NCBI GenBank assembly: GCA_002363515.1
Contig: DEVX01000080.1
Coordinates: 1 to 29,981 of the forward strand
Length of the DNA stretch: 29,981 nucleotides
Reading direction: 5' to 3'
From: Candidatus Saccharibacteria bacterium UBA3225
GTDB lineage: Bacteria; Patescibacteriota; Saccharimonadia; Saccharimonadales; Saccharimonadaceae
Part shown: one piece after another, positions 8,412 through 29,981 of the stretch
Layout: the number at the start of each line of letters is the position of its first letter
Numbering within the stretch: position 1 is the stretch's first letter
Program-made: the position numbers and the translations under genes
Notes under the pieces: generated by a model
Told to the model about the DNA's origin: nothing
The model's input: only the letters and a program-made list of their open reading frames with translations
Databases searched by the model: none

Positions 8412-11345
8412 CTATTTAAAATGTTTCAAATCTTCGTCCTGCGAAATTGACATCCTAATCACTTCGCCAGACTCGCCATAATAGCTATTTGCTTTTGTCG
8501 TACAACTATATTTACTACAGCTCAGCTCAAGATAACGCTTCTCGCCAGGATAACTACTATCATAAACACCAATGTAGTAATGATTTGAATTCTTTGCGTC
8601 TTGCACCAAGTTAATCGCATTCATTGCATGCAAACCACCCGAAAAATAAGCTAATATCACCGGCGCCTCATGTCGCGCAATTCGCGAAGAAAGCAGGGAA
8701 ATGAAATCGTTTGAATTCGTCATGTGCTTCGTGCTATTGTTGACTACCGTCGAATCAATACCAATCGCACTACCAGAGCTATACATTTTTACTGTCGTTT
8801 GACGTATTTGCGATGCATATATGGCATTAAATAAGCTTCTGTCAACGTCATTTATCGTTGCGCTATTTTGCATTTTCGTTTCACTTAAACGCGCCTTTGT
8901 CATCGAAGAGTATGAAAAGCCATATCGCTGAATTTGTGCATCCGACTTATGACTTGGCTTATCGTTGTAGAACTCATATAAACCAGTCTCGTTAATCTTT
9001 GAGCGCATATCCTCCGTATAGCCGATTACTCCATCATTAACCGTATACATATTTGCAGGCTCTTGTTCACCAAAATAATCAAAGCCAAATTGCGGCACAT
9101 ACTTTAGGGCATTAGTCTTCAATTTATAATCATACAAATTCTCATAGTCTTTAAAATACGACCAATTTAGATTATACGCAGACGAACTTAAGCCAGCATT
9201 TTTAATCGCATCATGTCGCAGGGGCATTTTCTTTGCGTAATATAATTGCGCAAATGTTGCCATCCCATAGCAATGACCATCCGTCATTAGATTTGAACTA
9301 TAATTCTTAAATGAAAAACCGTCACGAGTTACAATAAAACCACTGTCGGCCATCACATATCCATCCATCTTCCCATCACCATCAATATCGGCCAACTCGT
9401 CATTTAATAGTATTTCCAGGTTCTTAAATATCTCATCCAAACCACTTACATTAGTACTCGAGAAGTATCGACATCCCGTCCTCGCGGTAATTATAGAGAG
9501 ATTATTACTATAGGCTCCTTCGCCAAAACCTAATACGCATATACGCACATTCTGATTCACCATCTCATTTGTTAAAGCCCCAACCTGCTGAGCAAGATTA
9601 CCATTATCTTGTCCATCCGTTAAAAGAATCAAGGTCTTCAAGCTCGCTTTCGCAGAAAACTCGCGCGCTCCACTTCTGATTGCATTAGTTATATTTGTCC
9701 CAGCCTGTTTTATATATTGATGTTCATTCATGCCATCTAAGGTCTTTTCCATCGTATCAAGCTTAGACCCAATTTTTTCGACCGTCACGTAATCTCCGCT
9801 AAACTCACTTATTCCAACTTTTGCGCCTTTAGAATCTAGTTTTTTTATCAACTCTTTCGTTAGTTTGTAGCGACGCCCCTCTGGATCATTTCCTTCTAGC
9901 TTCTTCGGATAATCCGCCCCCTTCATCTTTTTGTATTGTTCATTCGTATACATGCTCCATGAGTTATCAAGCACAAACAAAATCTCAGAGTCCACGCTGT
10001 CAAGATTAGAGCTCTTTTTTGAGCCAACTACATAATATGAACTTAAATCATCCAACTTGGCCGATATTGTCTTTGCCGCTTTATTAATCTTCGTATCGAT
10101 AGCTACATATTTGTTGTCATTCAGAGCATATTTATACAAAACTAGATCATTCTCTGATATCTTCGCATTAATTAACTCTGCATCTGTATACGAAATCGAT
10201 ACCGTAACATCATTTACCTTGCCATCAGCATAAAAACTATATAACCGCGGTATTAATCCAGTCTTTTTGCTCAACGCTGCACCATTTGTTGTGTCTATTG
10301 TTACATTTGCAATATTGCCGGTTCCACTAATACTAACCGTAACACCATTATCTTTATACACATAACTGGTCGTACGGTCGCCATCCTTAACACCATCGCC
10401 CTTTGAATCTTCTTTTAATGGGTTCAAGTTCATTTTTATTTCGCTTGCATCATTTAGACCATCATTATCCGTATCTGCCTTTAGCGGATCAGTCTTCAGA
10501 GTATCCACCTCATATCCATCAGACAAACCATCGCCATCCGTATCAGTTAAGTCAATCTTCGTTTTTAAAGCTTTTTCACGCTTATTTATCAAACCATCTC
10601 CGTCCTCATCATTATCTGAACCGATATTAACCCGATAAATATCCTCTAAGCCTAAATCTTCGTGCTCCAACTCCTTCGGAACTACTACGAAGCTTTTCTC
10701 GATAACCTTTAAGTTGCGCCGCGCTTTAATGGTGCACTTTCCGACGCCGTCGCTCAAATCCCACACAATACCGCTTTCATCACGCTCCGGCTGTTTAACG
10801 TTTTCGTTTCTATCGCAAAATCCAGAATAGCTGATCCCCTCCAAAATATTGTCATCCGCATCTATGTCTAACTTTATTTTCGTTTGCGTCACATAGTCTA
10901 GCCCAATATCGCCATAAGCTTCTTTCCATTTGAAATCACCACTATTCAACAACCAAAATAACACTCCGCCACCGATTATCAACACGACTGCAATAATCAA
11001 AAAAACAAAAATAGCTTTCGATCTTCTTCTTGGCTCGTGCTCATCCTTTTGTGTCTGTTCTATTTGCGGCTGCGAAATATTATTTACTGGAACATTCGGT
11101 ACGGGCGCGATAGGGACAGCAGATACGGCAGGGGTGAGCGGAGAAGCTTGCGCCGAGGGTGAAGTGGCAACCTGAGTTGGTGTTTCTACTTTCTGTGCCG
11201 ACGTATAGCTATTTACCGGTCTATCAATATTTATTCGTCCACTACTTTGAGCAGGCGCCACTTGTTGACGCTCTTCATTTTTCAAACTATCTTTAGCAGG
11301 CCTAATATAGAGCATCCCGCTATCATCTAGCTTATTCCTATCCAT
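8412..11345 (-). CDS. Membrane-anchored protein with calcium-binding repeats, VWA domain and papain-like C-terminal domain
   Basis: About 977 residues. The N-terminus is cytoplasmic and Pro/Gln-rich, followed by RRRSK and one membrane helix (111-133), so the rest should be outside. Residues about 243-323 hold thrombospondin-type-3/EF-like calcium repeats (DNDEDGDGL, DTDGDGLSDG, DTDNDGLNDA). A von Willebrand A domain begins near 455 with MIDAS motif DNSWS (Asp460) and has LLTDGQD. Another DIDGDGKMDG loop leads to a C-terminal domain with DGHCYGMA (Cys692), GGLHAMN (His906) and VYDSSYPGE (Asp929), the order and context of a papain-like cysteine peptidase. The start at 11345 is chosen because a TATAAT lies at 11365-11370, downstream of the longer ATG (11405). 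Possible adhesin/protease; function not known. Confidence 0.85.
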   Translation of the reverse strand: MDRNKLDDSGMLYIRPAKDSLKNEERQQVAPAQSSGRINIDRPVNSYTSAQKVETPTQVATSPSAQASPLTPAVSAVPIAPVPNVPVNNISQPQIEQTQKDEHEPRRRSKAIFVFLIIAVVLIIGGGVLFWLLNSGDFKWKEAYGDIGLDYVTQTKIKLDIDADDNILEGISYSGFCDRNENVKQPERDESGIVWDLSDGVGKCTIKARRNLKVIEKSFVVVPKELEHEDLGLEDIYRVNIGSDNDEDGDGLINKREKALKTKIDLTDTDGDGLSDGYEVDTLKTDPLKADTDNDGLNDASEIKMNLNPLKEDSKGDGVKDGDRTTSYVYKDNGVTVSISGTGNIANVTIDTTNGAALSKKTGLIPRLYSFYADGKVNDVTVSISYTDAELINAKISENDLVLYKYALNDNKYVAIDTKINKAAKTISAKLDDLSSYYVVGSKKSSNLDSVDSEILFVLDNSWSMYTNEQYKKMKGADYPKKLEGNDPEGRRYKLTKELIKKLDSKGAKVGISEFSGDYVTVEKIGSKLDTMEKTLDGMNEHQYIKQAGTNITNAIRSGAREFSAKASLKTLILLTDGQDNGNLAQQVGALTNEMVNQNVRICVLGFGEGAYSNNLSIITARTGCRYFSSTNVSGLDEIFKNLEILLNDELADIDGDGKMDGYVMADSGFIVTRDGFSFKNYSSNLMTDGHCYGMATFAQLYYAKKMPLRHDAIKNAGLSSSAYNLNWSYFKDYENLYDYKLKTNALKYVPQFGFDYFGEQEPANMYTVNDGVIGYTEDMRSKINETGLYEFYNDKPSHKSDAQIQRYGFSYSSMTKARLSETKMQNSATINDVDRSLFNAIYASQIRQTTVKMYSSGSAIGIDSTVVNNSTKHMTNSNDFISLLSSRIARHEAPVILAYFSGGLHAMNAINLVQDAKNSNHYYIGVYDSSYPGEKRYLELSCSKYSCTTKANSYYGESGEVIRMSISQDEDLKHFK

Positions 11346-11364
11346 CTCCACCTTTTCTACAGTT

Positions 11365-11370
11365 ATTATA
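11365..11370 (-). promoter_or_regulatory. Extended -10 element for the VWA/papain-like gene
   Basis: TGG-TATAAT on the minus strand, 19 bases before the ATG at 11345. The predicted leader of about 13 bases contains AAGGTGG. This rules out the upstream ATG at 11405 for this transcript. Confidence 0.55.
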
Positions 11371-11405
11371 CCAAATAAAACATAATTATTTTCTGGCATC
11401 ATCAA

Positions 11406-12789: not shown

Positions 12790-14769
12790 TTATTTTTTAA
12801 CTTTTTCTAGAGGCTCATAGACCGTACCGACAAACCAAACTTCGCCGCTGTTCTTATCGCGAATTAGATATATAAACGGTTTATCAAATGTTAAATCAAT
12901 TTTTTCTACCGGCACATCCCATAGATACTCGAATCCGATACCGCCGCCGCCAAGACCGCCCATTATGGTTGCAGCACCAGCTTTAATGCCTTCATTTGAG
13001 AACTCTATATTAGCTTTATGTTTAGCTACGCCAATATACGATCCTTCTTTCGAGAGACTCGACAAGTCAGCCTTGCCCGATTCGAAAACATCTTTCACGC
13101 CCATCGCAACCAAGTCATCTTTCAGAGCTAAGTTGTAATCATATTTAAAGAGTGGAATATTCGCATCAATACGCGTCACAACTCCATCTTTAAAGTTCTC
13201 CTTCTTCAATTCTTTAAGGCCCTTAATATACTCTGACCCCTTTTCGGCTGTAAAATCACTTATGAAAGTCTTTAAGTCCGTATTTTTCGGCATAATACCG
13301 ACATATTGCAAAGTGTTCCCGTCATACTCTTTTAGGTCTTTTGCGAACACTTTCGCGTCACTCGCATCACTAAAGTAGAAATCGGTTGAAGAATTCTCTC
13401 TACCATAATTGTTCTTCAATTCTTTTATATACTGTTCCACATTTGCTTTTACATCAGAAGGGTCTATTGTATGACGCGTTGGATCTTCCTTATAGTCATC
13501 CAAAACCCACTTACCATCATCGGTCGTCAACCACTTCTTATATTCCTCGGTTACTTTCGTCCTAATAGCATCTTCACCCTTATCCTTAATGATGTCGTAT
13601 TTATTAAAACTTGCACCAATCTTAACAGACTTTCTATTATCTAAATTATTGAACTTCATTGCAGGAAAATCATTTTCATCTACCACAATGGGGATATATT
13701 GGTTATAATTCTCATGATCGTATCTAATATTATACATAGTCGACCCATCGGGTTGCGTTTTACATGGCACGCTTGAGTGTGGCTGACATTGCAACACATA
13801 ATTCCAATTTTGATCAATCGCCAAAGCATTAATTAATGCATAATTTAGCCCATCAAGATCTTCTTGACCTAATGCATTATTAATTAGCCCTAAAGTCTTA
13901 TCACTAATCCAATTATTAATCGCCGTAGGAGCCGCGAAGGAATCGTAGAGTACATCGGCATTATAATTCGTCTTCAAGCCAGTAATATAGCTGTCCAACA
14001 CTTGTTCTTTGTATTCATCACGAATAAACATCGCATTAGCAAGAGAAATGTTCTTACTATTAATATATTTTTTCGCCTTATAATCGCCAATTAAATCTTC
14101 AATTTGCTTCTTTGTTTCACCGCCAGCGCCATCCTTAAGCATCGCCAAAGCATACTTAATCGAAAGTGGGCTATATATTAAATTGTCTTCTTTTCCTTCA
14201 ATCTGCAAGAAACGCAAATCAAAATCACTCAAATCATTTCCGCTCAAGCGATATGAAGATACTTCTTCTTTTTTCTCCTCAGTTTTTTTGTCTTCTTTTT
14301 TATCGCTCGGCTTCGGTAATAACATAAAATATGCGCCTACACAGCCAACCATTATTAGTATTAATACTGCCGCTAGCGCCAAAACACGACCGTGACCTTT
14401 TTTCTTCGTTTCGCCGTTACTAGTATTAATTACACCAACTCCAGCGGTGCTTGTCACGTTTTGTCCAGCTAAACTATCCGCACTAATCTCTGTAGCCTTC
14501 TCCTCAGTTACATCACCAGCACTCGCTTCTGTAGTTTTTCCTTCAGCCGCGTCACTAGCGCCCGCTTCTGTAGTTTTTTCTTCAGCCGCATCGCTGCTAT
14601 CCATCTCAGTAACTTCTTCTCCAGCCGTACTATTCGCTATTACCTCACTAGAATCGCCCCCGGTTACATTATCGACGGTTGAATCTATGGGTTTTTCATC
14701 CATATTTACACCATCTTGCTGACCAAACGAATCTAGAGCTTCATTTTTTTGCTCTTTTTCGAAATCCAT
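12790..14769 (-). CDS. Membrane-anchored serpin-family protease inhibitor
   Basis: A 659-residue protein. Residues 1-128 are acidic and low-complexity, with three 13-residue repeats (59-97, first unit SDAAEEKTTEAGA). A membrane helix at 129-151 and a Lys/Glu linker follow. From about 176 the serpin fold shows IYSPLSIKYALAMLKDGAGG, ALINALAIDQNW, ADLSSLSKEG, the hinge NEGIKAGAAT (592-601) and the closing DKPFIYLIRD plus FVGTVYEP. The hinge has the small residues needed for loop insertion, so it could be inhibitory. The reactive loop is Gly-rich (GGLGGGGIGF). An insertion of roughly 130 residues lies mid-domain. Topology puts the serpin outside the cell. Confidence 0.88.
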   Translation of the reverse strand: MDFEKEQKNEALDSFGQQDGVNMDEKPIDSTVDNVTGGDSSEVIANSTAGEEVTEMDSSDAAEEKTTEAGASDAAEGKTTEASAGDVTEEKATEISADSLAGQNVTSTAGVGVINTSNGETKKKGHGRVLALAAVLILIMVGCVGAYFMLLPKPSDKKEDKKTEEKKEEVSSYRLSGNDLSDFDLRFLQIEGKEDNLIYSPLSIKYALAMLKDGAGGETKKQIEDLIGDYKAKKYINSKNISLANAMFIRDEYKEQVLDSYITGLKTNYNADVLYDSFAAPTAINNWISDKTLGLINNALGQEDLDGLNYALINALAIDQNWNYVLQCQPHSSVPCKTQPDGSTMYNIRYDHENYNQYIPIVVDENDFPAMKFNNLDNRKSVKIGASFNKYDIIKDKGEDAIRTKVTEEYKKWLTTDDGKWVLDDYKEDPTRHTIDPSDVKANVEQYIKELKNNYGRENSSTDFYFSDASDAKVFAKDLKEYDGNTLQYVGIMPKNTDLKTFISDFTAEKGSEYIKGLKELKKENFKDGVVTRIDANIPLFKYDYNLALKDDLVAMGVKDVFESGKADLSSLSKEGSYIGVAKHKANIEFSNEGIKAGAATIMGGLGGGGIGFEYLWDVPVEKIDLTFDKPFIYLIRDKNSGEVWFVGTVYEPLEKVKK

Positions 14770-17282: not shown

Positions 17283-20200
17283 TTACTTCCGCTTATTGAG
17301 CACAAATAGCACACCGCCACCAATCAGGGTAACTGCAATCAAGGACACAACAACTACTCGCACCATCTCGCTCACGCTACCCATCGGGCCATTTTCAACA
17401 TCATTCTCGCCGCCACTATTGTCAGGGTTACCATTCCCGTCCCCGTTTCCTTCAGAATTCTCATCGAAATTTCCCGAACCACCATTCCCGCCAGGACCAC
17501 CAGAGTCCCCGTTTCCTTCAGAATTCTCATCGAAATTTCCCGAACCGCCGTCACTGCCGCCCCCAGACGGCTTCGATGAAGACTTTTCCACCGTTATTGT
17601 TGCCATTGCCGAGTTGCCGGCGTCATTGGTCTTTACTGTAATTGTCGCTGTACCGACAGATACACCCTTTACGACACCAGATGCGCTTACGGTTGCAACA
17701 TTGCTGTTGCTACTCATCCAAGTTACAGCCTTATTCGTTGCATTCGACGGCGTAACCGTAGCGGTTAAGGTCACTGTACTGCCAACATTAATTGTCGCAC
17801 TCGCCGTATTAAGCTTTATGTTCGCAGTGGGAATCGCGTCAATATCATCATCTGCCGCTTCGTCTTCAGTACCACCGTTGTCCTTAATTATTTCATTGCT
17901 AAACACCGTCACGATTACGGTTGCTTTCTTTCCACCATCATTCGTTGTCGCCGTAATCGTTGCTGTGCCGACGCCCTTCGCTGTCACTATCCCCACACTA
18001 GTAACCGTCGCTACACTCGTGTTGCTACTCATCCAAGTTACAGCCTTATTCGTTGCATTCGACGGCGAAACCGTAGCACTAATCTGACTCGTTTCACCCA
18101 CCTCTAATGTTGCACTATTCTTGCTCAACGTTATCGATTGCACTCTAATCGGCGAGACTGTAACACTTACGGTTGCTTTCTTTCCACCATCATTCGTTGT
18201 CGCCGTAATCGTTGCTGTGCCGACCCCTTCCGCCACTATTGTCCCCTCACCGGTAACAGTTGCCACACTCGTATTGTTACTCGTCCAAGTTACAGCCTTA
18301 TTCGTTGCGTTCGACGGCTTCACTGTCGCCGTAATCTTTTCTGTCGCCCCAATCAACAAACTTATGCTAGTCTTCGATACTTTAATACCAGTCACACTGA
18401 CTGTAGGCTTTACGACGGTCACGGTCGCCGAAGCGCTCTTTCCACCATCATTCGTTGTCGCCGTAATCGTTGCTGTGCCGACGCCCTTCGCTGTTACTAT
18501 TCCCACACTAGTAACCGTCGCTACACTCGTGTTGCTACTTTTCCAAGTCACGGTCTTGTTTGATGCCGCTTTCGGCGAAACGATAGCCTCTAACTTTTCA
18601 GTCTTGCCAGTATTAATTGTGGTGCTCGTTTTCGATAGCTTTACACTAGTCACGGCCGTCGTCACCGTAACCGTTGCCGTCGTTGTTTTTCCCGTATCAT
18701 TAGTCTTTACTGTGATTATCGCTTTTCCATTACCCACTCCTTTTACAATGCCGCTCGCGCTAACCGTTGCTACATTAGTATTGCTACTCGTCCAAGTCAC
18801 GGCCTTATTCGTCGTACTTGAGGGTACAACCGTCGCCGTCAGAGAAGTTGTCTTTCCGGTCAACACCGATAAGCTCGTCTTATTCAACTTTACACTAGTG
18901 GATTTAACGATGATATTTGCCGTTAAATTCGTCGTATCCAGAATTTTGATATATCCACTACTATCCGCCCCCGCTGCCGTCCTAACGGCACTAATGTTTG
19001 GTCCAAATTTTACGCTAATTTTGATTGAATTCTTATTCTTATAATTAAGGTTCTTTATCGCATTCGTAATCTTCGTATTCGTAATATCAGAATAGAACGA
19101 AAATATTGTCGTTTGTCTTGGATATTCATAATACGTTGTGCCATTTATCTCAACTCTAATCGCGTCAATAACATAATTCGTAAACAACGTACCTTTTAGT
19201 CTCTTATTATTCGCAAAATAATCATACAAAGTCTGATTCAAGTTATTATAAGACTTATCTAAAGCCAACCTGGCAACTGGTTTTTCAATTTTGTTCTTCG
19301 CAATATAATTCGTTATATTTTTATATCTAAAAGCATAGTAATTGGAATTAAACAGGGAAGTAAACGAATATTTCAAATTAACCTTGAAAATCGATAACAG
19401 CCCTTTATTCTTATTGTAAAGATCATCTACTGACTTCAAATCCGTCAACTGAGGATTCAGGGTATATTTCCAGCCCGTCTTAGAAGCCGCGATATGCGTT
19501 GCATCTCTCTGGTATACTTTCTGATGGCGAGTGCCAACCTCCGTCGTAATGACATAACTCTTATCTGGATTTATTCCACCATGCGCGTCGCAAAAACCAT
19601 TCTTGTATTTATCTGTCGAAACACCATCCTTTTTGCACACGACATGGCTATATCCAGACACCATCCTCACGTGACCATACACATCGATAATATCACCCGG
19701 CAACGCCAATGCATATCCGTTATAAATCTTCTGATTACCATAAGTGGTCTTGATATACGTCGAATAGTTCGACTTATACATTTCACTGGTCATATGCTGG
19801 CTATTCTTCAATGAACCTTTTTTGCGCAGGTACTTTTCCACCTTATCAGCAGAAACACTCAATCCACCCAACATGGATACCTGCCCATTACTGAAGTACC
19901 TACCCGAGTCCGCCATCGGACTTAATGTCGCCACATCTCTACCGACGGCCAAATAAATCGACGAGCTACAATCAAGGCCTAGGTAATAGCCATCACCCTT
20001 CAAACCAAACGAATTACGAATAAACTGGAGGTTTCCATTTTGCAATTCGGTTTTTCTCGTCCCTATCTTGTCGTTCTTTTCATATGCTTCATTTATATAT
20101 AATGTTTTGTTTGGAATTGCACTTCCAGCATTGAACGTCTTTCCGTGATTACTTGTAACTGTAGCCTGAAAAGTGTCTGCTAACTTATAAGAAAAATATG

Positions 20201-21386
20201 CCGTGTTTTTCTTCTTTGCCGTCGCGACATCATTCACCGTACCATAATGCGTAAATTGTCCAATTGTCGATTTAACTGTATTCACATATGGAATGCCGTA
20301 ATAATTCTGTTTGCTGCTAGGCTTTATTATAATCGGCTCCGTTACGTAGTGGTGATAGAAATGCAAAGTCGTGCCGCCGGACATATTCCACTTTACCGTG
20401 GCATTCTCAAGCATATTATTCACTACATTGTGCCTAATCGCATCCTCCGCCCCATTCACACTTACATAACTTTTTCCACCCCCATATGAGCTGTACCCAT
20501 AGAGCGACAAACTAAACAGCCTAAAAAGCCCCTTTGTGATCGGGTAGTTATAATACGGATATATCTCTATCCCTTTAATAGCCTCGCCCGCCGGTATCCC
20601 CCCTACTAGATTCTTCGAAATCAGCTTATATGTAGTAATTATCTTATTACTGCCATCGGAGGACTGTTCTCTATAATAGTTATCATATTCCGCATCCGCC
20701 ATCGCATATGGACCATATGTACTTTTATTTGTATGAACAAAAAAAGCAATCGAATTATACGCCGCAATATCGGTGTCGATTGTCCTATACGTCGTAACGT
20801 CAGCAGCGGCTACTGATTTTCCATACACCACAAAAAGCCGCAAGTCCCCATACGTATTACTCCTAACTCCTTTACCGCTAACATCAAGATATAGGAACGT
20901 CTTCTCGCCCGGCTTCAACGAATTCAAAGAGTCTCCCATACCCGTCTTCGGCCGATTCGAAACAAAGAAATACGCTCGACTCCCGTAGCTATTAGCATTC
21001 TTGACCAAAACATCATCTGCATATATTTTACTCGACCGCGCCGCCCTCCCATAACGCACATATGCCTCACCTTTTTTAATCTGACTCTCTCTTATAGTGT
21101 ATGTCGACATATTATTACATGTATCAGTAGGCGAATTAAAATAATATCTTTTGCTATCATAATAACCCCTGATACCAATCCTCAAATCCTTATTGGTTTT
21201 CACGGCATCACAAATACCATCTGCGTTATAGCCGACGATTTTGGTATTAGAACTTGCCGCCAGTGCGCCAGTATTGCTACTTACATTATTGCCAAAAAGG
21301 CCTACATTATCTTTAGAAATGACCGCAATCTCAACCCCAAGCGCAGCTGCAACTAAAATCAATAATAAAACAGCCTTCTTTATCAC
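17283..21386 (-). CDS. Large surface protein: NlpC/P60-like domain, five BIG2 repeats, C-terminal membrane anchor
   Basis: 1367 residues from a GTG at 21386 (TATAAT at 21412-21417; GGGAG upstream). An N-terminal signal segment (IKKAVLLLILVAAALGVEI) is followed by about 400 unassigned residues rich in Tyr and Ser. An NlpC/P60-like peptidase/amidase region has GLDCSSS (Cys473) and PGDIIDVYGHVRMV (His572). Residues about 828-1266 hold five BIG2 immunoglobulin-like repeats, each with an AVTWxSxNTxVATV core. A Gly/Asn/Glu linker contains two copies of GGSGNFDENSEGNGD, and the protein ends with a membrane helix and NKRK. No LPxTG motif is seen. A cell-wall-acting or adhesive role is inferred; it was not recognised as a named protein. 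Confidence 0.85.
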   Translation of the reverse strand: MIKKAVLLLILVAAALGVEIAVISKDNVGLFGNNVSSNTGALAASSNTKIVGYNADGICDAVKTNKDLRIGIRGYYDSKRYYFNSPTDTCNNMSTYTIRESQIKKGEAYVRYGRAARSSKIYADDVLVKNANSYGSRAYFFVSNRPKTGMGDSLNSLKPGEKTFLYLDVSGKGVRSNTYGDLRLFVVYGKSVAAADVTTYRTIDTDIAAYNSIAFFVHTNKSTYGPYAMADAEYDNYYREQSSDGSNKIITTYKLISKNLVGGIPAGEAIKGIEIYPYYNYPITKGLFRLFSLSLYGYSSYGGGKSYVSVNGAEDAIRHNVVNNMLENATVKWNMSGGTTLHFYHHYVTEPIIIKPSSKQNYYGIPYVNTVKSTIGQFTHYGTVNDVATAKKKNTAYFSYKLADTFQATVTSNHGKTFNAGSAIPNKTLYINEAYEKNDKIGTRKTELQNGNLQFIRNSFGLKGDGYYLGLDCSSSIYLAVGRDVATLSPMADSGRYFSNGQVSMLGGLSVSADKVEKYLRKKGSLKNSQHMTSEMYKSNYSTYIKTTYGNQKIYNGYALALPGDIIDVYGHVRMVSGYSHVVCKKDGVSTDKYKNGFCDAHGGINPDKSYVITTEVGTRHQKVYQRDATHIAASKTGWKYTLNPQLTDLKSVDDLYNKNKGLLSIFKVNLKYSFTSLFNSNYYAFRYKNITNYIAKNKIEKPVARLALDKSYNNLNQTLYDYFANNKRLKGTLFTNYVIDAIRVEINGTTYYEYPRQTTIFSFYSDITNTKITNAIKNLNYKNKNSIKISVKFGPNISAVRTAAGADSSGYIKILDTTNLTANIIVKSTSVKLNKTSLSVLTGKTTSLTATVVPSSTTNKAVTWTSSNTNVATVSASGIVKGVGNGKAIITVKTNDTGKTTTATVTVTTAVTSVKLSKTSTTINTGKTEKLEAIVSPKAASNKTVTWKSSNTSVATVTSVGIVTAKGVGTATITATTNDGGKSASATVTVVKPTVSVTGIKVSKTSISLLIGATEKITATVKPSNATNKAVTWTSNNTSVATVTGEGTIVAEGVGTATITATTNDGGKKATVSVTVSPIRVQSITLSKNSATLEVGETSQISATVSPSNATNKAVTWMSSNTSVATVTSVGIVTAKGVGTATITATTNDGGKKATVIVTVFSNEIIKDNGGTEDEAADDDIDAIPTANIKLNTASATINVGSTVTLTATVTPSNATNKAVTWMSSNSNVATVSASGVVKGVSVGTATITVKTNDAGNSAMATITVEKSSSKPSGGGSDGGSGNFDENSEGNGDSGGPGGNGGSGNFDENSEGNGDGNGNPDNSGGENDVENGPMGSVSEMVRVVVVSLIAVTLIGGGVLFVLNKRK
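17439..17546 (-). repeat. 42-bp direct repeat in the linker of the BIG2 protein
   Basis: The 42 bases at 17439-17480 recur without change at 17505-17546, a 66-bp period. They encode the duplicated SGNFDENSEGNGD-type linker segment. The identity suggests a recent duplication. Confidence 0.85.
17586..18902 (-). repeat. Five BIG2-encoding repeats
   Basis: About 250-bp units encode the five BIG2 domains. Several blocks are near-identical at DNA level, for example CCACCATCATTCGTTGTCGC at about 17932, 18184 and 18441, and CAAGTTACAGCC at several sites. The similarity suggests unequal crossing-over or gene conversion among the units. Long plus-strand open frames across this stretch are shadows of the repeats. 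Confidence 0.8.
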
Positions 21387-22803: not shown

Positions 22804-23202
22804 ATGAAAAAATTAATCGAAAAAACAGGGCAAGTTCTCACTGGCGCTGCAACTACCGCGACGCTTTTTGCAGGTCGCGCAATGGCCGCCATGAATTATG
22901 ATAATCCAGCTCAAGCTGGTGCTGACGCTGCTCGCGGCAATGGCATGCCGGCCGAACTAATCGGAGCTTCCGGCGTTTTTACTCGCATTACAAACACCAT
23001 TCTTTTCGCTGTAGGTATCATATCTGTCGTAATGCTCATCTATGGCGGCTTACGCTATATCATCTCTGGAGGCGACAGTAAAAAAGTTACCGACGCCAAA
23101 AACACTATTATGTATGCCATCATCGGCCTAATTATCGCCATCCTTTCATACGCAATAGTCAACTTCGTGATCAGCGCCGTTGGCGGCTCTACTACTGTTT
23201 AA
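22804..23202 (+). CDS. Type IV secretion pilin-like protein (T4SS_pilin / VirB2 type)
   Basis: 132 residues. A Sec-type signal (KKLIEKTGQVLTGAATTATL, then AGRAMA) ends near residue 29, and two membrane helices flank the module signature YGGLRYIISGGDSKKV, then AKNTIMYAIIGLI. The same Gly-Gly / Ser-x-Gly-Asp / Lys-Asn-Thr-Ile-Met-Tyr pattern recurs in the seven minus-strand genes at 24540-29297. Such proteins are assigned to VirB2-like pilins of CPR type IV secretion/pilus systems. It is the only plus-strand copy and stands apart from the cluster. It converges on comF with three bases between the stops. Confidence 0.85.
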   Translation: MKKLIEKTGQVLTGAATTATLFAGRAMAAMNYDNPAQAGADAARGNGMPAELIGASGVFTRITNTILFAVGIISVVMLIYGGLRYIISGGDSKKVTDAKNTIMYAIIGLIIAILSYAIVNFVISAVGGSTTV

Positions 23203-24539: not shown

Positions 24540-24917
24540 TTAACCCAACAAACTGCTTAACACAAAGTTTACAATTGCGAAAGCAGACAGGACAATTATT
24601 AAACCCACTATACCGTACAGAATTGTATTTTTACCTTTCTGTACTCTCTCTGGCGATCCTTGCGATGTCATATAGTAGAAACCACCAATAATCATCATAA
24701 CTACCGCTATAATACCTACAACTCCAAACGTAGTATTTAGCAAGTTTTTTATTATTGTCATTATATCTGGCCCATCTGGGACTACGATTGAACTTGCTCC
24801 TTCGCGCGCATAATAACTCGGCGTTTCAGCAAAAGTATTACTACAAATTAACAAATTACTAATCATTAAGCCGAAACAAAAGATAGTTTTATTAATTTTT
24901 TTGTTTTTTATACCCAT
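24540..24917 (-). CDS. Type IV secretion pilin-like protein
   Basis: 125 residues from the ATG at 24917. An in-frame ATG at 24950 is rejected because the promoter lies between the two. A signal peptide (KTIFCFGLMISNLLICSNTFA) is followed by a short extracellular part and two helices around IGGFYYMTSQGSPERVQKGK and NTILYGIVGLI. Here Gly-Asp of the module is Gly-Ser-Pro. It is the last gene of the minus-strand series and has its own leaderless-type promoter at 24924, so it is transcribed separately from its neighbours. Confidence 0.85.
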   Translation of the reverse strand: MGIKNKKINKTIFCFGLMISNLLICSNTFAETPSYYAREGASSIVVPDGPDIMTIIKNLLNTTFGVVGIIAVVMMIIGGFYYMTSQGSPERVQKGKNTILYGIVGLIIVLSAFAIVNFVLSSLLG

Positions 24918-24923
24918 ACATTT

Positions 24924-24929
24924 ATCATA
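24924..24929 (-). promoter_or_regulatory. Extended -10 element, predicted leaderless promoter of a pilin gene
   Basis: TGT-TATGAT on the minus strand, exactly six bases (AAATGT) before the ATG at 24917. There is no Shine-Dalgarno sequence. Confidence 0.6.
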
Positions 24930-24939
24930 ACATACAAAA

Positions 24940-24965
24940 ATACCTCCCACTAAAAGGGGAGGTAT
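24940..24965 (-). terminator. Terminator of the pilin gene 24984-25418
   Basis: ATACCTCCC / GGGAGGTAT stem with an eight-base loop, followed by five T on the minus strand. It separates this gene from the promoter of the next pilin. Confidence 0.85.
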
Positions 24966-24983: not shown

Positions 24984-25418
24984 CTATCCACCAATAAGAC
25001 CGTTTAGAACAAAGCTCACTATTGCAAATGAGAGCAATACAACCACTAAACCGATGATACCGTACATAATTGTATTTTTCGCTTTTTGCAACTTAGCGCT
25101 ATCGCCCTGCGACGTAGTGTAATTTACGCCGCCAATTATAATCATAATTACCGCAACAATACCGATGATACCAAAAACGACATTCAAAATCGTCTGGATC
25201 ATTGACATTAAGTCCGTATTTGCACCTGGGTTTACATTGGAAACACCAGCACGCGCATTCTCGCCCGCTGAGCCAGCCCCCCCATTGCCTCCACCGCCAT
25301 CAGAACCGCCAGCAGTATTACCGCCAGCAAATACACTAACGCCTTGCGTAGAAATAGTCAACGCCGCGATAGTCAAAGCTGCACCTGCCTCTTTCGCGAT
25401 TTCCTTTGTTTTGCTCAT
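24984..25418 (-). CDS. Type IV secretion pilin-like protein with Gly-rich exposed segment
   Basis: 144 residues. A signal peptide (GAALTIAALTISTQGVSVFA) is followed by a Gly/Ala-rich segment (GGSDGGGGNGGAGSAG), then LNVVFGIIGIVAVIMIIIGG, VNYTTSQGDSAKLQKAK, and NTIMYGIIGLVVVLLSFAIV. AAGGAG precedes the ATG at 25418 at a long spacing of about 11 bases. The terminator at 24940-24965 closes the unit. Confidence 0.88.
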   Translation of the reverse strand: MSKTKEIAKEAGAALTIAALTISTQGVSVFAGGNTAGGSDGGGGNGGAGSAGENARAGVSNVNPGANTDLMSMIQTILNVVFGIIGIVAVIMIIIGGVNYTTSQGDSAKLQKAKNTIMYGIIGLVVVLLSFAIVSFVLNGLIGG

Positions 25419-25518: not shown

Positions 25519-26004
25519 TTAACCGTTAGTAAGAGCGGCAAGTATGAAGTTAACAATAGCGTAAGCCAAAATGGCGATTACGAGACCGATAATACCATAA
25601 AGAATCGTGTCTTTACCTTTCTTAACCTTCGTAGTGTCACCTTGGGAAGTAGCATAGCTAACGCCACCAAGAATCACCATAATAACAGCAACCATACCCA
25701 CAACAAAGATGATAGTATTAATTATTACTTTAACCATGTCATTAAGGTCGTCACCATTACAGCTATCCGGATCAGACGCTAACGTACCAGCCTGTGCACA
25801 ATCAGCCGATGTCTTGCCATAGATGGAAACATATTCATCGCCAACCTTAATGCGTTGACAATATATACCCTCGCTAGTAGACAGATTTGGATATTTCTTA
25901 CCCTCACCTATACATTCGTCTATAGCGAAAATTGGACCACCGAGCAATACGACGCTAAAGATCGCCAAGACCGCCACCTTTATTATTTTATTAATTGTTT
26001 TCAT
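25519..26004 (-). CDS. Type IV secretion pilin-like protein with a Cys-containing exposed domain
   Basis: 161 residues. The signal peptide (VAVLAIFSVVLLGGPIFA) is followed by an exposed segment of about 65 residues with four Cys (DEC, YCQ, DCA, SCNG), which could form two disulfides. The pilin module reads LGGVSYATSQGDTTKVKKGK, DTILYGIIGLVIAIL, with KDT in place of KNT. AAAGGAG stands eight bases before the ATG. A 78-base gap separates it from the next gene upstream. Confidence 0.88.
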   Translation of the reverse strand: MKTINKIIKVAVLAIFSVVLLGGPIFAIDECIGEGKKYPNLSTSEGIYCQRIKVGDEYVSIYGKTSADCAQAGTLASDPDSCNGDDLNDMVKVIINTIIFVVGMVAVIMVILGGVSYATSQGDTTKVKKGKDTILYGIIGLVIAILAYAIVNFILAALTNG

Positions 26005-26081: not shown

Positions 26082-26387
26082 TTAGAACGAATTAAGCACA
26101 AACGACACAATAGCGAATGCTAAAAGAGTAACAATCAGGCCAATAATACCGTACATTATAGTATTTTTACCTTTCTTTATTTTTTCAGCATCACCGTTCG
26201 ATGTAATGTAATAAACACCACCAATAATAATTACAATAACTGCGATTACGCCCACCAACGTAAATACTACTGACAATACATTATTAACCGTAGTTTGTAA
26301 GTTTGTGCCACCACCGTCAACCTGCGTCACTTGTTTGGATGGGTCGGTAGGAGCGTTGCCTGTTATTAGAAAAAATATCTTATCCAT
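26082..26387 (-). CDS. Short type IV secretion pilin-like protein
   Basis: About 101 residues, the shortest of the set. It lacks a clear cleavable signal: the N-terminus is MDKIFFLITGNAPTDPS, then helix 1 (VFTLVGVIAVIVIIIGG), VYYITSNGDAEKIKKGK, and NTIMYGIIGLIVTLLAFAIV. Two ATG codons are adjacent; the second (26387) has better spacing from AGAGG. It lies only 14 bases after the stop of the pilin-SGNH fusion and is likely cotranscribed with it, which supports a joint role. Confidence 0.83.
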   Translation of the reverse strand: MDKIFFLITGNAPTDPSKQVTQVDGGGTNLQTTVNNVLSVVFTLVGVIAVIVIIIGGVYYITSNGDAEKIKKGKNTIMYGIIGLIVTLLAFAIVSFVLNSF

Positions 26388-26401
26388 CATTACCTCTTTA
26401 A

Positions 26402-28066
26402 TTAATTATAACATTCCTGCTTGGCTATTGACTTCAATGCGCTTAAAGAGTTTTTCTCAGACGAAGAGAAGCTTCCAGGAATATATGTAATAGTCGTCGG
26501 ATCGATTTTAAACATTTTCGAAACAATACAGGCTGCTGCCGTGTAGGCTCCCATTTTACTCTGATGCCGATCATCCTTAAAAGCTTTACGCCCACTCGCT
26601 TTAAGTTTATATAGAGCATCACCATCATCAGTCGTATCCGAAAAAACTCCAGCGTTTAAGGCAATTTTACGAGCTACATTTGTTGCTATTTTATTTACAG
26701 TATCTCTAGTGCTGGTACTAGAATCCCTTAAGTACCAAACTTTACGTACGTATACTCTTACGTCGCTATTTTTTGCCTTTACTGCCTTAGCTATTGCAAG
26801 AGCCCCGTCGTAAAATTGGCTCTCACTTTTAGCAGATCCAGTCCGCTCCTGTAAAACGACGTAGTCGTAGTATTTCTTAATATTCGTTCCTTGATTCGTA
26901 TAATTCCACTTCAAAGATTTTCCGCCTTTAGTTACTCTTGTCGTATTAACGCTATAGCCACGTCCCTTCAGCATTTCAGCCGCTTTCTTATCAATATCTT
27001 CCACGTAAGTCTTACTATTCCCAACCCATAGTATCTTTATTTCCCGCACTGTAATACTCTTGGTTAGCGTGACACTGTTGCTCTTTGCATCTAAAGTCTT
27101 AGCCGTCAAAGTAGCAGTCCCAGGCTTTTTGCCTGTAACTACGCCATTAGAGTTTACCGTCATTACCGCACTATTACTTGACGACCATCTTACAACACCT
27201 TTATTGCCAGTAACCTTTGCCGTAGTTGTATGCTCATCTAGAATTGACGTAGAACCCACAGTTAGTGTTACTTTCGTAGAGCCACTAGGGTTACTAGGCG
27301 TACTCGGTGTCGACGGGGTACTAGGAGTTCCTGTTCCAGATTCTTCCTTTTTTGCCGGATCATTTACGGTTACTATGGCCTTATCGGCGACGCCGTTTCT
27401 GCTGGTTGCCGAAATAGTCGCTTTACCACTACTTTTTGCCACAATTTTGCCACTTTGATCAACGGTTGCCACTTTTCCATTATCCGACGACCATGTTATA
27501 GAAGTATCCACCGCGTTTTTCGGATAAACTTCTGCTTTTATCGTTTCTGTATCGCCAATATCCATTACTATAGTTCGCTTCGACAAACTAACCGCGCTAA
27601 TTTGCCATTGCTCCTCAGTTGACGGTCGCGGAGTAGCCGGAACGGTATTCTGGCCAGACCCGCCCCCTCCGCCAGCTGGGGCTTGCCCATCAAGTGCACC
27701 TATTACCAAATTCGTAATAGCAAACGCCGCCAAAGCCACCACTAATCCGATAATGGCATACATGATAGCATTTTTTGCACCCGCTATTTTATTCGTATCA
27801 CCAGCCGAAATCATGTAAAATATCCCGCCTATCACTATTACAATGACGGCAATAATACCAATCCAAAGATATACGGTATTTAAAATATTTCTTATTCTAT
27901 TTTCCAGGGCAACCTCATTTGCCCCTTTTCCGTAACCACAGACTAACGGATCATTAAATCCAGCCACGCCACAAGCGGACTGATGCGCAAAAGTCACATT
28001 TTTAATACCCAGACAAGATATTATCGACAATACAATAACGGCAAAAACGATAATTATTTTCTTCAT
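26402..28066 (-). CDS. Fusion: pilin module, two BIG2 domains and C-terminal SGNH/DUF4886-like hydrolase
   Basis: 554 residues. Signal peptide 1-27; pilin module 55-126 (GGIFYMISAGDTNKIAGAK, then NAIMYAIIGLVV); Gly-rich linker; BIG2 domain at about 154-235 (ITWSSDNGKVATVDQSGKIV); Pro/Ser/Thr linker (GTPSTPSTPSTPSNPSG); second BIG2 at about 265-340; hydrolase at 341-554. The hydrolase has ILWVGNSKT (Ser351 in the GDS-like block), YDYVVLQERTG, and DDRHQSKMGAYTAAA (Asp498, His501), the order expected of SGNH esterases of the DUF4886 type. Two adjacent ATGs; the second (28066) suits AGAGG better. It begins eight bases after the double-pilin stop, so it belongs to the same operon. The substrate is unknown; deacylation of a surface glycan is a guess. 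Confidence 0.85.
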   Translation of the reverse strand: MKKIIIVFAVIVLSIISCLGIKNVTFAHQSACGVAGFNDPLVCGYGKGANEVALENRIRNILNTVYLWIGIIAVIVIVIGGIFYMISAGDTNKIAGAKNAIMYAIIGLVVALAAFAITNLVIGALDGQAPAGGGGGSGQNTVPATPRPSTEEQWQISAVSLSKRTIVMDIGDTETIKAEVYPKNAVDTSITWSSDNGKVATVDQSGKIVAKSSGKATISATSRNGVADKAIVTVNDPAKKEESGTGTPSTPSTPSTPSNPSGSTKVTLTVGSTSILDEHTTTAKVTGNKGVVRWSSSNSAVMTVNSNGVVTGKKPGTATLTAKTLDAKSNSVTLTKSITVREIKILWVGNSKTYVEDIDKKAAEMLKGRGYSVNTTRVTKGGKSLKWNYTNQGTNIKKYYDYVVLQERTGSAKSESQFYDGALAIAKAVKAKNSDVRVYVRKVWYLRDSSTSTRDTVNKIATNVARKIALNAGVFSDTTDDGDALYKLKASGRKAFKDDRHQSKMGAYTAAACIVSKMFKIDPTTITYIPGSFSSSEKNSLSALKSIAKQECYN

Positions 28067-28074
28067 CATTACCT

Positions 28075-28803
28075 CTAGCCACCATTAACGGCTGATACAA
28101 CCAAATTAACAATCGCCGCCGCGAGCAGGGTAATAACAAGACCAATCGCCGCGTACATAATTGTGTTTTTTGCTTTTTGCACTTTTCCAGAGTCGCCGAC
28201 ACTCGTTACATACGAAATACCGCCAATCACCATCACTACCGCACAGACAATACCAGCCCACATAAATGCGTGATTAAATATTTCCGCAAAGAAGTTCGCA
28301 TCGTTTGCTGCACCTGAAGCAATATCTACAATTGCCCCAGATATCAATGAAGCCGTCACGCAGATTACAATGCCAATCAAAGCATTAGTAATCGTTTTCT
28401 TACCATTAGCAACCTTTCCGCTATCACCTCGCGCCAACATATACTGATAACCACCCCATATCACAAAGCCAACACAAACATAGCCTGCAATCTGGAGCAC
28501 CATCGTCGCAATATTTAATACAATCATCCAGACAAGCTGACGAATTTCACCCTCGTTCGCCGGTTGCTCACCTCCACAAACTACATTATTTAGAAGCTCG
28601 CCATCGTACCAAGCGCGCAACCCCATAAAATGCGTTTTTGGGCATGTCGCATTTCCAAAACCCGTACCGCCAGAATTATTACCACTATCGCCACCACTAT
28701 TACCACCAGCATTACCCCCCTCAGCAATCGCGATAGGAGCAACTAGCAACTGAGCAAAAACCATGCTCAATCCCATCAGCAATATCAGTAACTTTTTCTT
28801 CAT
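28075..28803 (-). CDS. Tandem double pilin-like membrane protein
   Basis: 242 residues. A signal peptide (LLILLMGLSMVFAQLLVAPIAIA) and a Gly/Asn-rich segment are followed by two copies of the pilin module: WGGYQYMLARGDSGKVANGK with KTITNALIGIVI, then IGGISYVTSVGDSGKVQKAK with NTIMYAAIGLVI. Each is flanked by two helices, giving four in all. The second copy is much closer to the single-module pilins. AAGGAG lies five bases before the ATG, which overlaps the stop of the upstream gene (ATGA). It could act as a base or adaptor for the pilus, but that is inference. Confidence 0.85.
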   Translation of the reverse strand: MKKKLLILLMGLSMVFAQLLVAPIAIAEGGNAGGNSGGDSGNNSGGTGFGNATCPKTHFMGLRAWYDGELLNNVVCGGEQPANEGEIRQLVWMIVLNIATMVLQIAGYVCVGFVIWGGYQYMLARGDSGKVANGKKTITNALIGIVICVTASLISGAIVDIASGAANDANFFAEIFNHAFMWAGIVCAVVMVIGGISYVTSVGDSGKVQKAKNTIMYAAIGLVITLLAAAIVNLVVSAVNGG

Positions 28804-29297
28804 TTTATCTCCTTAATTTTTATAATAGCACCGCTATTTACATAACCAGGGGTTTCTTCATCTGGAATAAATAAGACAAGCAGCAAAGCGCCCGCCGCCC
28901 ACAATACGATACCTATTACTATCTCTACCATACGTTTTTTCGCTAGAGCAACTTGCCCATCATTCCCCTTTGCCGTCATAATCATATAGCCGCAAATTAT
29001 AAAACCAATTGTCGCCAATAACCCAATACCTACAGATAGAATCGATATAGCGAAAATAATAATATCTTTTATAGTAGCTTCGCCATCATTTTCCGCATCG
29101 TCACACCAAAAGCTCAAGACAGTTGCGCATTTTTTATTATTATCTGGAGCAATCTTTATATCTAAAAAGCCAAAGTATTCACCACTATCCGCCCAAGCCG
29201 TACCTCCAACAAAAAAGACGCTGGCTAATAAGGCTACCAATAATAACCCAACTCTTACAACCGAACTCTTTTGTTTAGCTTTCATTAATCCAAACAT
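28800..29297 (-). CDS. Divergent pilin-like membrane protein, first gene of the operon
   Basis: About 165 residues from an ATG at 29297 (a downstream ATG at 29285 is possible). Signal segment VGLLLVALLASVFFVGGTAWA, then an exposed part with two Cys (KKCATVLSFWCDD), and two helices around ICGYMIMTAKGNDGQVALAK and KRMVEIVIGIVLWAAG. The module is recognisable but drifts: GNDGQV for GDxxKV and KKR for KNT. The C-terminal tail (IPDEETPGYVNSGAIIKIKE) follows helix 2, unlike in the others. The promoter lies in the 130-base divergent region shared with the VirB6-like gene. Confidence 0.75.
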   Translation of the reverse strand: MFGLMKAKQKSSVVRVGLLLVALLASVFFVGGTAWADSGEYFGFLDIKIAPDNNKKCATVLSFWCDDAENDGEATIKDIIIFAISILSVGIGLLATIGFIICGYMIMTAKGNDGQVALAKKRMVEIVIGIVLWAAGALLLVLFIPDEETPGYVNSGAIIKIKEIK

Positions 29298-29389
29298 ATA
29301 ATTATATACACACATTATAACATAAGCATTCGCAATTAATTATGGGGTAGTGTATAATTGGATTTCTAACTTAATAGACAGCATAATAC

Positions 29390-29427: not shown

Positions 29428-29981
29428 ATGGGTAGGTGGTTAAAAAGAATAGCCTTATCTCTATTAATTACTGCTTTGAGCATTAGCCTTATAAGTAGTC
29501 CTGTTTTTGCAACCGCTACAGATCCGGCCACTACAAACCCAGATACTTCCACTACAACTCCCGCAGACACTACAGACGACGAAAACACAGAAGAGAATAC
29601 CGACGAAGCCACCAATGGCACCACGGCGGCAGAACAGACCACCGACAATCCAACCTGCTACGATCAAGTTGGCGGTATCGGCTGGCTAGTCTGTCCGGGT
29701 ACTGGACTTCTAGCTAATATTATTGACGGAGCATACGGCGTTCTCGATAACCTATTATTAGTAGACCCTATACCAAACGATCCAACCTCGCCAATCCATG
29801 TCGTTTGGGATTATATTCGCAATATCACCAATCTTATTTTCGTGCTTTTCTTCTTGGCAATCATCTTCTCGCAACTTACCGGTGTCGGCATAAACAACTA
29901 TGGTATCAAACGTATGCTACCGCGTTTAGTTATTGCCGCAATCTTAATTAATCTTAGTTACACCATCTGTACAGTAGCCGT
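29428..29981 (+). CDS. VirB6/TrbL-like polytopic membrane protein, 3'-truncated by window edge
   Basis: Open from the ATG at 29428 to the window end (184 codons, no stop). The signal peptide (LKRIALSLLITALSISLISS, then PVFA) is followed by a Thr/Asp/Glu-rich segment (about 31-75), TCYDQVGGIGWLVCPGTG with a likely disulfide, then GAYGVLDNLLLVDPIPNDP and two membrane helices (ITNLIFVLFFLAIIF; MLPRLVIAAILINLSYTICT). The layout, with a long exposed N-terminal segment and GINNYGIKRMLPRLVIA, is that of the large CPR membrane proteins annotated as type IV secretion VirB6/TrbL. Divergent from the pilin operon, it is probably the inner membrane channel component. The start is leaderless or nearly so. 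Confidence 0.78.
   Translation, partial: MGRWLKRIALSLLITALSISLISSPVFATATDPATTNPDTSTTTPADTTDDENTEENTDEATNGTTAAEQTTDNPTCYDQVGGIGWLVCPGTGLLANIIDGAYGVLDNLLLVDPIPNDPTSPIHVVWDYIRNITNLIFVLFFLAIIFSQLTGVGINNYGIKRMLPRLVIAAILINLSYTICTVA

Follow-up and report, generated by a model that had tools for sequence, protein, structure and literature searches.

Gene content of the pilin locus

The window, that is, the whole stretch of 29,981 nucleotides that was analyzed, is one whole contig of a draft genome. Its minus strand carries an array of seven pilin genes, the third of which (slot 3) is separated from its array neighbors by gaps of 5 and 11 bases and encodes a pilin joined in frame to BIG2 domains and an SGNH hydrolase domain (Table 1). 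The table follows the 555-residue reading. A second ATG at 28066, the start used in the first-pass annotation, gives a product of 554 residues and is, by our own reading of the sequence, the likelier start because AGAGG lies five bases upstream. The residues called Ser352, Asp499 and His502 below correspond to Ser351, Asp498 and His501 in that annotation.

Table 1. Coordinates of the pilin genes, the fusion gene and its parts in the window.
Feature	Position	Strand	Description
Start of divergent membrane protein	29428..29981	+	Cut by contig end; VirB6-like by position only
Array slot 1	28800..29315	-	171 aa; weak pilin match (21.7 bits), below cut-off
Array slot 2	28075..28803	-	242 aa; two pilin modules
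Array slot 3, whole fusion gene	26402..28069	-	555 aa; slot-3 pilin, BIG2 domains and SGNH hydrolase
Signal peptide	27986..28069	-	About residues 1-28, end TFA; read from sequence
N-terminal Cys pair	27938..27973	-	Residues 33 and 44, ahead of helix 1
T4SS pilin module (PF18895)	27704..27901	-	Residues 57-122
Gly-rich linker	27605..27700	-	About residues 124-155; pLDDT <50 at 124-153
BIG2 domain 1	27365..27595	-	61.5 bits
BIG2 domain 2	27098..27277	-	29.3 bits
SGNH hydrolase domain	26405..27046	-	Residues 342-555
Ser352 codon	27014-27016	-	
Asp499 codon	26573-26575	-	
His502 codon	26564-26566	-	
Array slot 4, pilin	26082..26390	-	102 aa
Array slot 5, pilin	25519..26004	-	161 aa
Array slot 6, pilin	24984..25418	-	144 aa
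Array slot 7, pilin	24540..24950	-	136 aa
Further pilin, opposite strand	22804..23202	+	132 aa

The contig ends inside the divergent membrane protein, and the draft's own VirB4 is therefore found on a separate contig (C62). In a relative (L117), the counterpart of this membrane protein has 935 residues, is without a Pfam match and is VirB6-like by position only. PrgI, an unmatched protein, VirB4 (PF19044, 1e-29) and another unmatched protein come after it, so that PrgI and VirB4 adjoin the array in this relative. Further on lie a protein matching Phage_lysozyme2 and a weak hit to PEGA; the AAA, DnaN and DnaA genes that come next are encoded on the opposite strand. Published saccharibacterial T4SS loci, as far as the available parts of the reports go, resemble this layout (PMC12102498; PMC10633639).

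Terminator-like hairpins were found 10 times in the window against 4.5 by chance. On the minus strand they occur between slots 5 and 6 (25495-25470) and between slots 6 and 7 (24965-24940), where they might set the pilin ratio; from slot 2 to the end of slot 5 we saw only weak ones, one within slot 1 (28902-28875) and one within slot 5 (25863-25836). The number of promoter-like sites, 17, was close to the chance mean of 14.6. Of all the pilins, the one encoded on the opposite strand shows the strongest conservation: its 14 copies share a single branch (SH-aLRT 99) whose terminal branches are short, and for this reason it could be the main pilus subunit. Slot-1 pilins with N-terminal extensions of about 180-220 residues were seen in several lineages, at L077:3991-4998, L083:4569-5540, L074:4889-5758 and L091:5083-5997. 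Elsewhere on the minus strand, the window encodes a 659-residue protein with a serpin domain (12790-14769; 2e-44), unusual in so small a genome, a 1367-residue protein with five BIG2 stretches (17283-21386), similar to a 1379-residue frame on draft contig C40, and a likely surface protein of 997 residues with VWA and TSP3 repeats (8412-11405).

Integrity of the fusion gene

The same frame was present in three public records (L047-L049) at 95-96% identity and also in more distant records. The one continuous gene described in the first-pass annotation is thus upheld, and an assembly error joining two genes was rejected. Against L047-L049, dN/dS ranged from 0.018 to 0.043 in the pilin part, from 0.148 to 0.169 in BIG2 and from 0.105 to 0.129 in SGNH, which indicates that the pilin and enzyme parts both evolve under purifying selection. 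The draft around the window is fragmented (88 contigs), which would suit an assembly artefact or a decaying fusion; however, the frame shared with near and distant records and the low dN/dS in all domains argue against this explanation, and we give it practically no weight. The observation of one pilin-BIG2-SGNH gene is confirmed as real.

Pilin module and its plain counterparts

The pilin module matched T4SS_pilin (PF18895) with 36.8 bits against a curated Pfam cut-off of 26.6, and BIG2 (PF02368) matched with 77.2 bits over two stretches, above its cut-off of 22.8, in agreement with the domains first read from the letters alone. A match to the Mbov_0395 pilin-like family (NCBIfam) fell just below its cut-off (39.7 vs 40). 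The full-length model predicts a two-helix hydrophobic hairpin (helices 50-87 and 92-126), and a module-only model has helices at 17-54 and 59-93 with pLDDT mostly above 80. Cys33 and Cys44 are invariant in 53 aligned fusions, and the Cys-pair pattern recurs in 73/73 pilin-BIG2 proteins. When the fold of the hairpin was compared with solved structures, no match was obtained at E <= 0.001; the rows were general helical hairpins, with conjugative pilins absent from those listed, a result that excludes nothing. Two chance-level rows were obtained when the pilin profile was searched against the sequences of solved structures. The signal peptide, two hydrophobic helices, basic loop and T4SS_pilin profile are shared with TraA/VirB2 conjugative pilins, and other array members match the TrbC/VirB2 profile. 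However, known TraA/VirB2 pilins are short and single-module, whereas the present gene has 420 further residues.

To compare array positions, we ran our own pilin profile over 54 loci from genome contigs, five stretches of the own genome and the window, which yielded 227 frames. Slots were numbered by their order from the double pilin, which was possible in 19 loci; L085 and L095 were mislabelled where a slot is missing, and arrays lacking a clear double pilin were left unnumbered. In six of the 19 numbered loci (the window and L047-L051, with the window and L047-L049 near-identical) the SGNH fusion occupies slot 3. Among the other 13 loci, ten have a plain pilin of 120-161 aa there (L074, L076, L077, L078, L081, L083, L087, L090, L091, L093); the remaining three are L075, cut by a contig end, and L085 and L095, without a clear slot 3. 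The short slot-3 pilins were on average the best match of the fused slot-3 modules (87.9 bits; next group 79.1), and the top-scoring unfused match was, for all six fusions, a frame without a slot number, a group that also contains frames truncated at contig ends.

A tree of 139 modules grouped 31 of 37 fusions with seven short slot-3 pilins (SH-aLRT 91 for the shared branch); two more grouped with other slot-3 pilins, and the remaining four (two GH114, VanY and L053:2943) sat on long branches elsewhere. For a thinned tree of 110 modules, we left out long branches (L095, L084, L053:2943, L091:3840, L012:5937, L085:6273), L011 and L065:776, near-copies (L047, L049, L060, L061, L063) and modules with unknown residues; fusions and slot 3 again lay on one side of a branch (78.9). 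Topology tests on the thinned set rejected a grouping of the fusions with slot 4, 5, 6 or 7 (p 0.005 or less) and rejected neither the opposite-strand pilin (p 0.475) nor slot 2b (p 0.321) as partner. The tree support for fusions with slot 3 (91 and 78.9) is moderate. Given synteny and phylogeny in combination, the pilin half is most likely the orthologue of an ordinary array pilin.

SGNH domain

Fold comparison of the predicted model identifies the C-terminal domain as an SGNH fold. The more specific DUF4886 label of the first-pass annotation held only in a looser sense: because the PF16227 matches (18.1 and 22.2 bits) are below the curated cut-off of 26.7, we call the domain DUF4886-like and not a member. 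From DUF4886 SGNH hydrolases (4i8i) and SGNH carbohydrate esterases it differs both in this score and in its attachment to a pilin. The SGNH profile gave two chance-level rows against sequences of solved structures.

Ser352, Asp499 and His502 (blocks I and V), previously noted to follow the right order, proved invariant in 13/13 aligned sequences, and Gly383, a candidate for the block II Gly, is invariant as well. SGNH hydrolases carry a Gly in block II and an Asn in block III, the latter in a GxND-type motif. No GxND-type block III was seen in this alignment, where an invariant Gln407-Glu408 stands at a position at which the Asn might be looked for. This replacement would suit a domain that binds or adheres and is non-catalytic, as would the listing of DUF4886 without a known activity in the available part of a review (PMC9487903). 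Nevertheless, the invariance of the Ser, Asp and His residues and the fact that other cargoes on this pilin type are hydrolase families make a purely binding domain highly improbable.

A family with varied C-terminal cargoes

Searching with the pilin part alone returned 76 proteins, 73 of which had both PF18895 and Big_2. We scanned 72 full-length members (68 of these 76 and four more SGNH proteins), leaving out five apparently cut proteins and three without BIG2. T4SS_pilin and Big_2 matched in 72/72; the pilin-BIG2 architecture is conserved in these relatives, with C-termini that vary. The last 190 residues of 80 proteins (the 72 and the eight left out) fell into 19 clusters, or 15 once cut, poly-pilin and BIG2-less ones were set aside, several of which are probably one broad cysteine-peptidase kind. 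Among the 25 of 49 families listed, cargo matches in the 72 proteins were to C39 peptidase (11), NlpC/P60 (9), DUF4886 (9), CHAP (3) and three families of abhydrolase type, each with 3 matches that may come from the same proteins. Precomputed domains added YkuD (P0039) and GH43 (P0142), our own reading of the sequence suggested GDPD-like ends, and a metallo-lactamase match was weak. Most of the named cargoes belong to families that cut peptides, peptidoglycan or glycans, in keeping with a bacterium living on other cells.

Pilin-BIG2 proteins of the own draft end in SGNH, in C39 and, twice, in a CHAP- or NlpC-like part; the profile matches of these last two are weak, but they fall into one BLAST cluster. 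The draft also encodes a BIG2-GH114 protein and a phosphatase protein with pilin hits that hmmscan scored under the cut-off, as well as further frames cut by contig ends. BIG2-less fusions carry VanY (L091) or phosphodiester glycosidase and lysozyme (L156, L158). The cargo is C-terminal; in the phosphatase protein L014 it is N-terminal, ahead of the pilin. Of note, a 746-residue protein (L157:1778-4018) has a pilin module and, by our own reading, two cargoes, one CHAP-like and one of esterase/peptidase-S9 type, and a 641-residue Peregrinibacteria protein (P0151) has tandem pilin-like modules in its C-terminal part. Two long frames from other genera were rejected as pilin-enzyme proteins: L162:583-1863 (426 aa), with a pilin-like module and several further hydrophobic helices, VirB6-like by look, and the frame of L163, a pilin with an N-terminal extension.

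SGNH relatives were taken from 120 of 517 matches. Among the matches listed, P0013 and P0014 carry the same kind of SGNH domain (46-47% over the covered part) behind BIG2, with a single N-terminal hydrophobic stretch replacing the pilin, which counts against a necessary role of the pilin for this domain. Protein P0121 also combines BIG2 with this kind of SGNH domain (33% identity over the domain), with a dockerin replacing the pilin.

Distribution

Five of the 392 genomes of the class, counting the own one, contained the SGNH domain, and all five belong to the own genus (5 of 24 there); L052, named UBA2834, has such a domain as well. Pilin-BIG2 fusions with any cargo were present in at least 10 of the 392 class genomes, at least eight of them in the own genus, both counts being minima as only the three best candidates per genome were scored. 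A sample of the phylum yielded one of 239 genomes, the own one, at E 1e-40. Given this narrow confinement in both samples, the BIG2-type fusion looks local and recent. Genome G186 (96% complete) has seven of its 15 pilin matches in frames >300 aa, the other eight being the array's own, and no free slot-3-like pilin was found there alongside the fused ones. In G218 a short slot 3 stands in the array and a fusion elsewhere, G062 has an array without slot 3 and two fusions elsewhere, and G060, G063, G087 and G092, out of nine genomes of the genus that were examined, had no pilin frame >300 aa. Since many fusions are off-array and G062 keeps its fusions without a slot 3, the array position is not needed.

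Interpretation

We read the gene as a slot-3 T4SS pilin lengthened by a linker, two BIG2 domains and an SGNH esterase-type hydrolase, serving as a display chassis with exchangeable cargo, and we assign this reading a probability of roughly 0.55. The interpretation in the first-pass annotation is thereby supported in part. By analogy with known conjugative pilins, the hairpin would insert into the membrane and leave its two ends on the outer side. According to the available part of PMC7555446, F pilin in the membrane has its loop toward the cytoplasm, and both ends lie outside the filament. Since both F pilin ends lie outside, a cargo at either end would be outside too, and outside display is by this analogy likely. 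The tether would hold the enzyme at the base of the T4SS or, as part of a decorated subunit, on the filament itself, and the linker with its two BIG2 domains would extend outward from the membrane or filament. It may cleave acyl esters, most likely O-acetyl groups, on glycans of the host cell or the rumen, with sister pilins alongside carrying peptidases, amidases and glycosidases. In this very small bacterium, from a lineage that depends on hosts, the in-frame pilin-enzyme genes suggest that pilus subunits hold cutting enzymes at the cell surface.

Alternatively, the pilin module could be a re-used membrane anchor holding surface enzymes, with no part in a pilus or T4SS. Most fusions lie away from the array, the SGNH domain of P0013 and P0014 sits on a plain hydrophobic stretch, and an addition of 420 residues could hinder packing. 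However, six numbered loci (four near-identical) have the fusion in the slot of a plain pilin among tightly spaced pilin genes, and the pilin part has the lowest dN/dS of the domains, which would be more than an anchor needs. We regard a mere anchor as the main rival, plausible but less likely than display on a pilin.

The pilin part might also act as a targeting signal by which the T4SS releases the enzyme or delivers it into or onto another cell. A signal peptide followed by a hairpin of two hydrophobic helices would rather mark a membrane substrate, and to our knowledge it is not a T4SS signal. T4SS do deliver proteins in other bacteria, and such delivery has been discussed for Saccharibacteria in the available part of PMC10633639. 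Overall, delivery appears improbable.

The components are each known, and their combination and its scale appear to be new. In Patescibacteria, 441 VirB2-like arrays of 2-11 pilin genes have been reported, the same array kind beside VirB4/PrgI, and the pilin array is reported to be essential in Ca. S. epibionticum; the available parts of these reports mention no pilin with a BIG2 or enzyme domain (PMC10633639; PMC12102498). VirB1/PrgK-type wall hydrolases of Gram-positive T4SS are likewise envelope-cutting T4SS enzymes, as described in part of PMC12102498, but they are separate proteins, whereas the present enzyme is joined to a pilin. We found no account of enzyme-bearing T4SS pilins in the accessible portion of the open-licence literature. 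In one cultivated Saccharibacterium, T4SS pilins have been reported as essential, with their role left open in the available parts of the reports (PMC10633639; PMC12857230).

Enzymes fused to one pilin type suggest that this T4SS acts at the surfaces of other cells or polymers. The fusions indicate which subunit ends must be outside, and the fused enzymes provide a natural tag for finding the filament. More tentatively, the T4SS pilus may be an enzyme-decorated filament, with each genome arming one pilin lineage with its own set of enzymes that cut envelopes and glycans. If so, it would bear exchangeable hydrolases on a fibre, cellulosome-like in principle and built on secretion-system pilins. 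A pilin chassis for exchangeable enzymes would, if true, be a new way of arming a secretion system.
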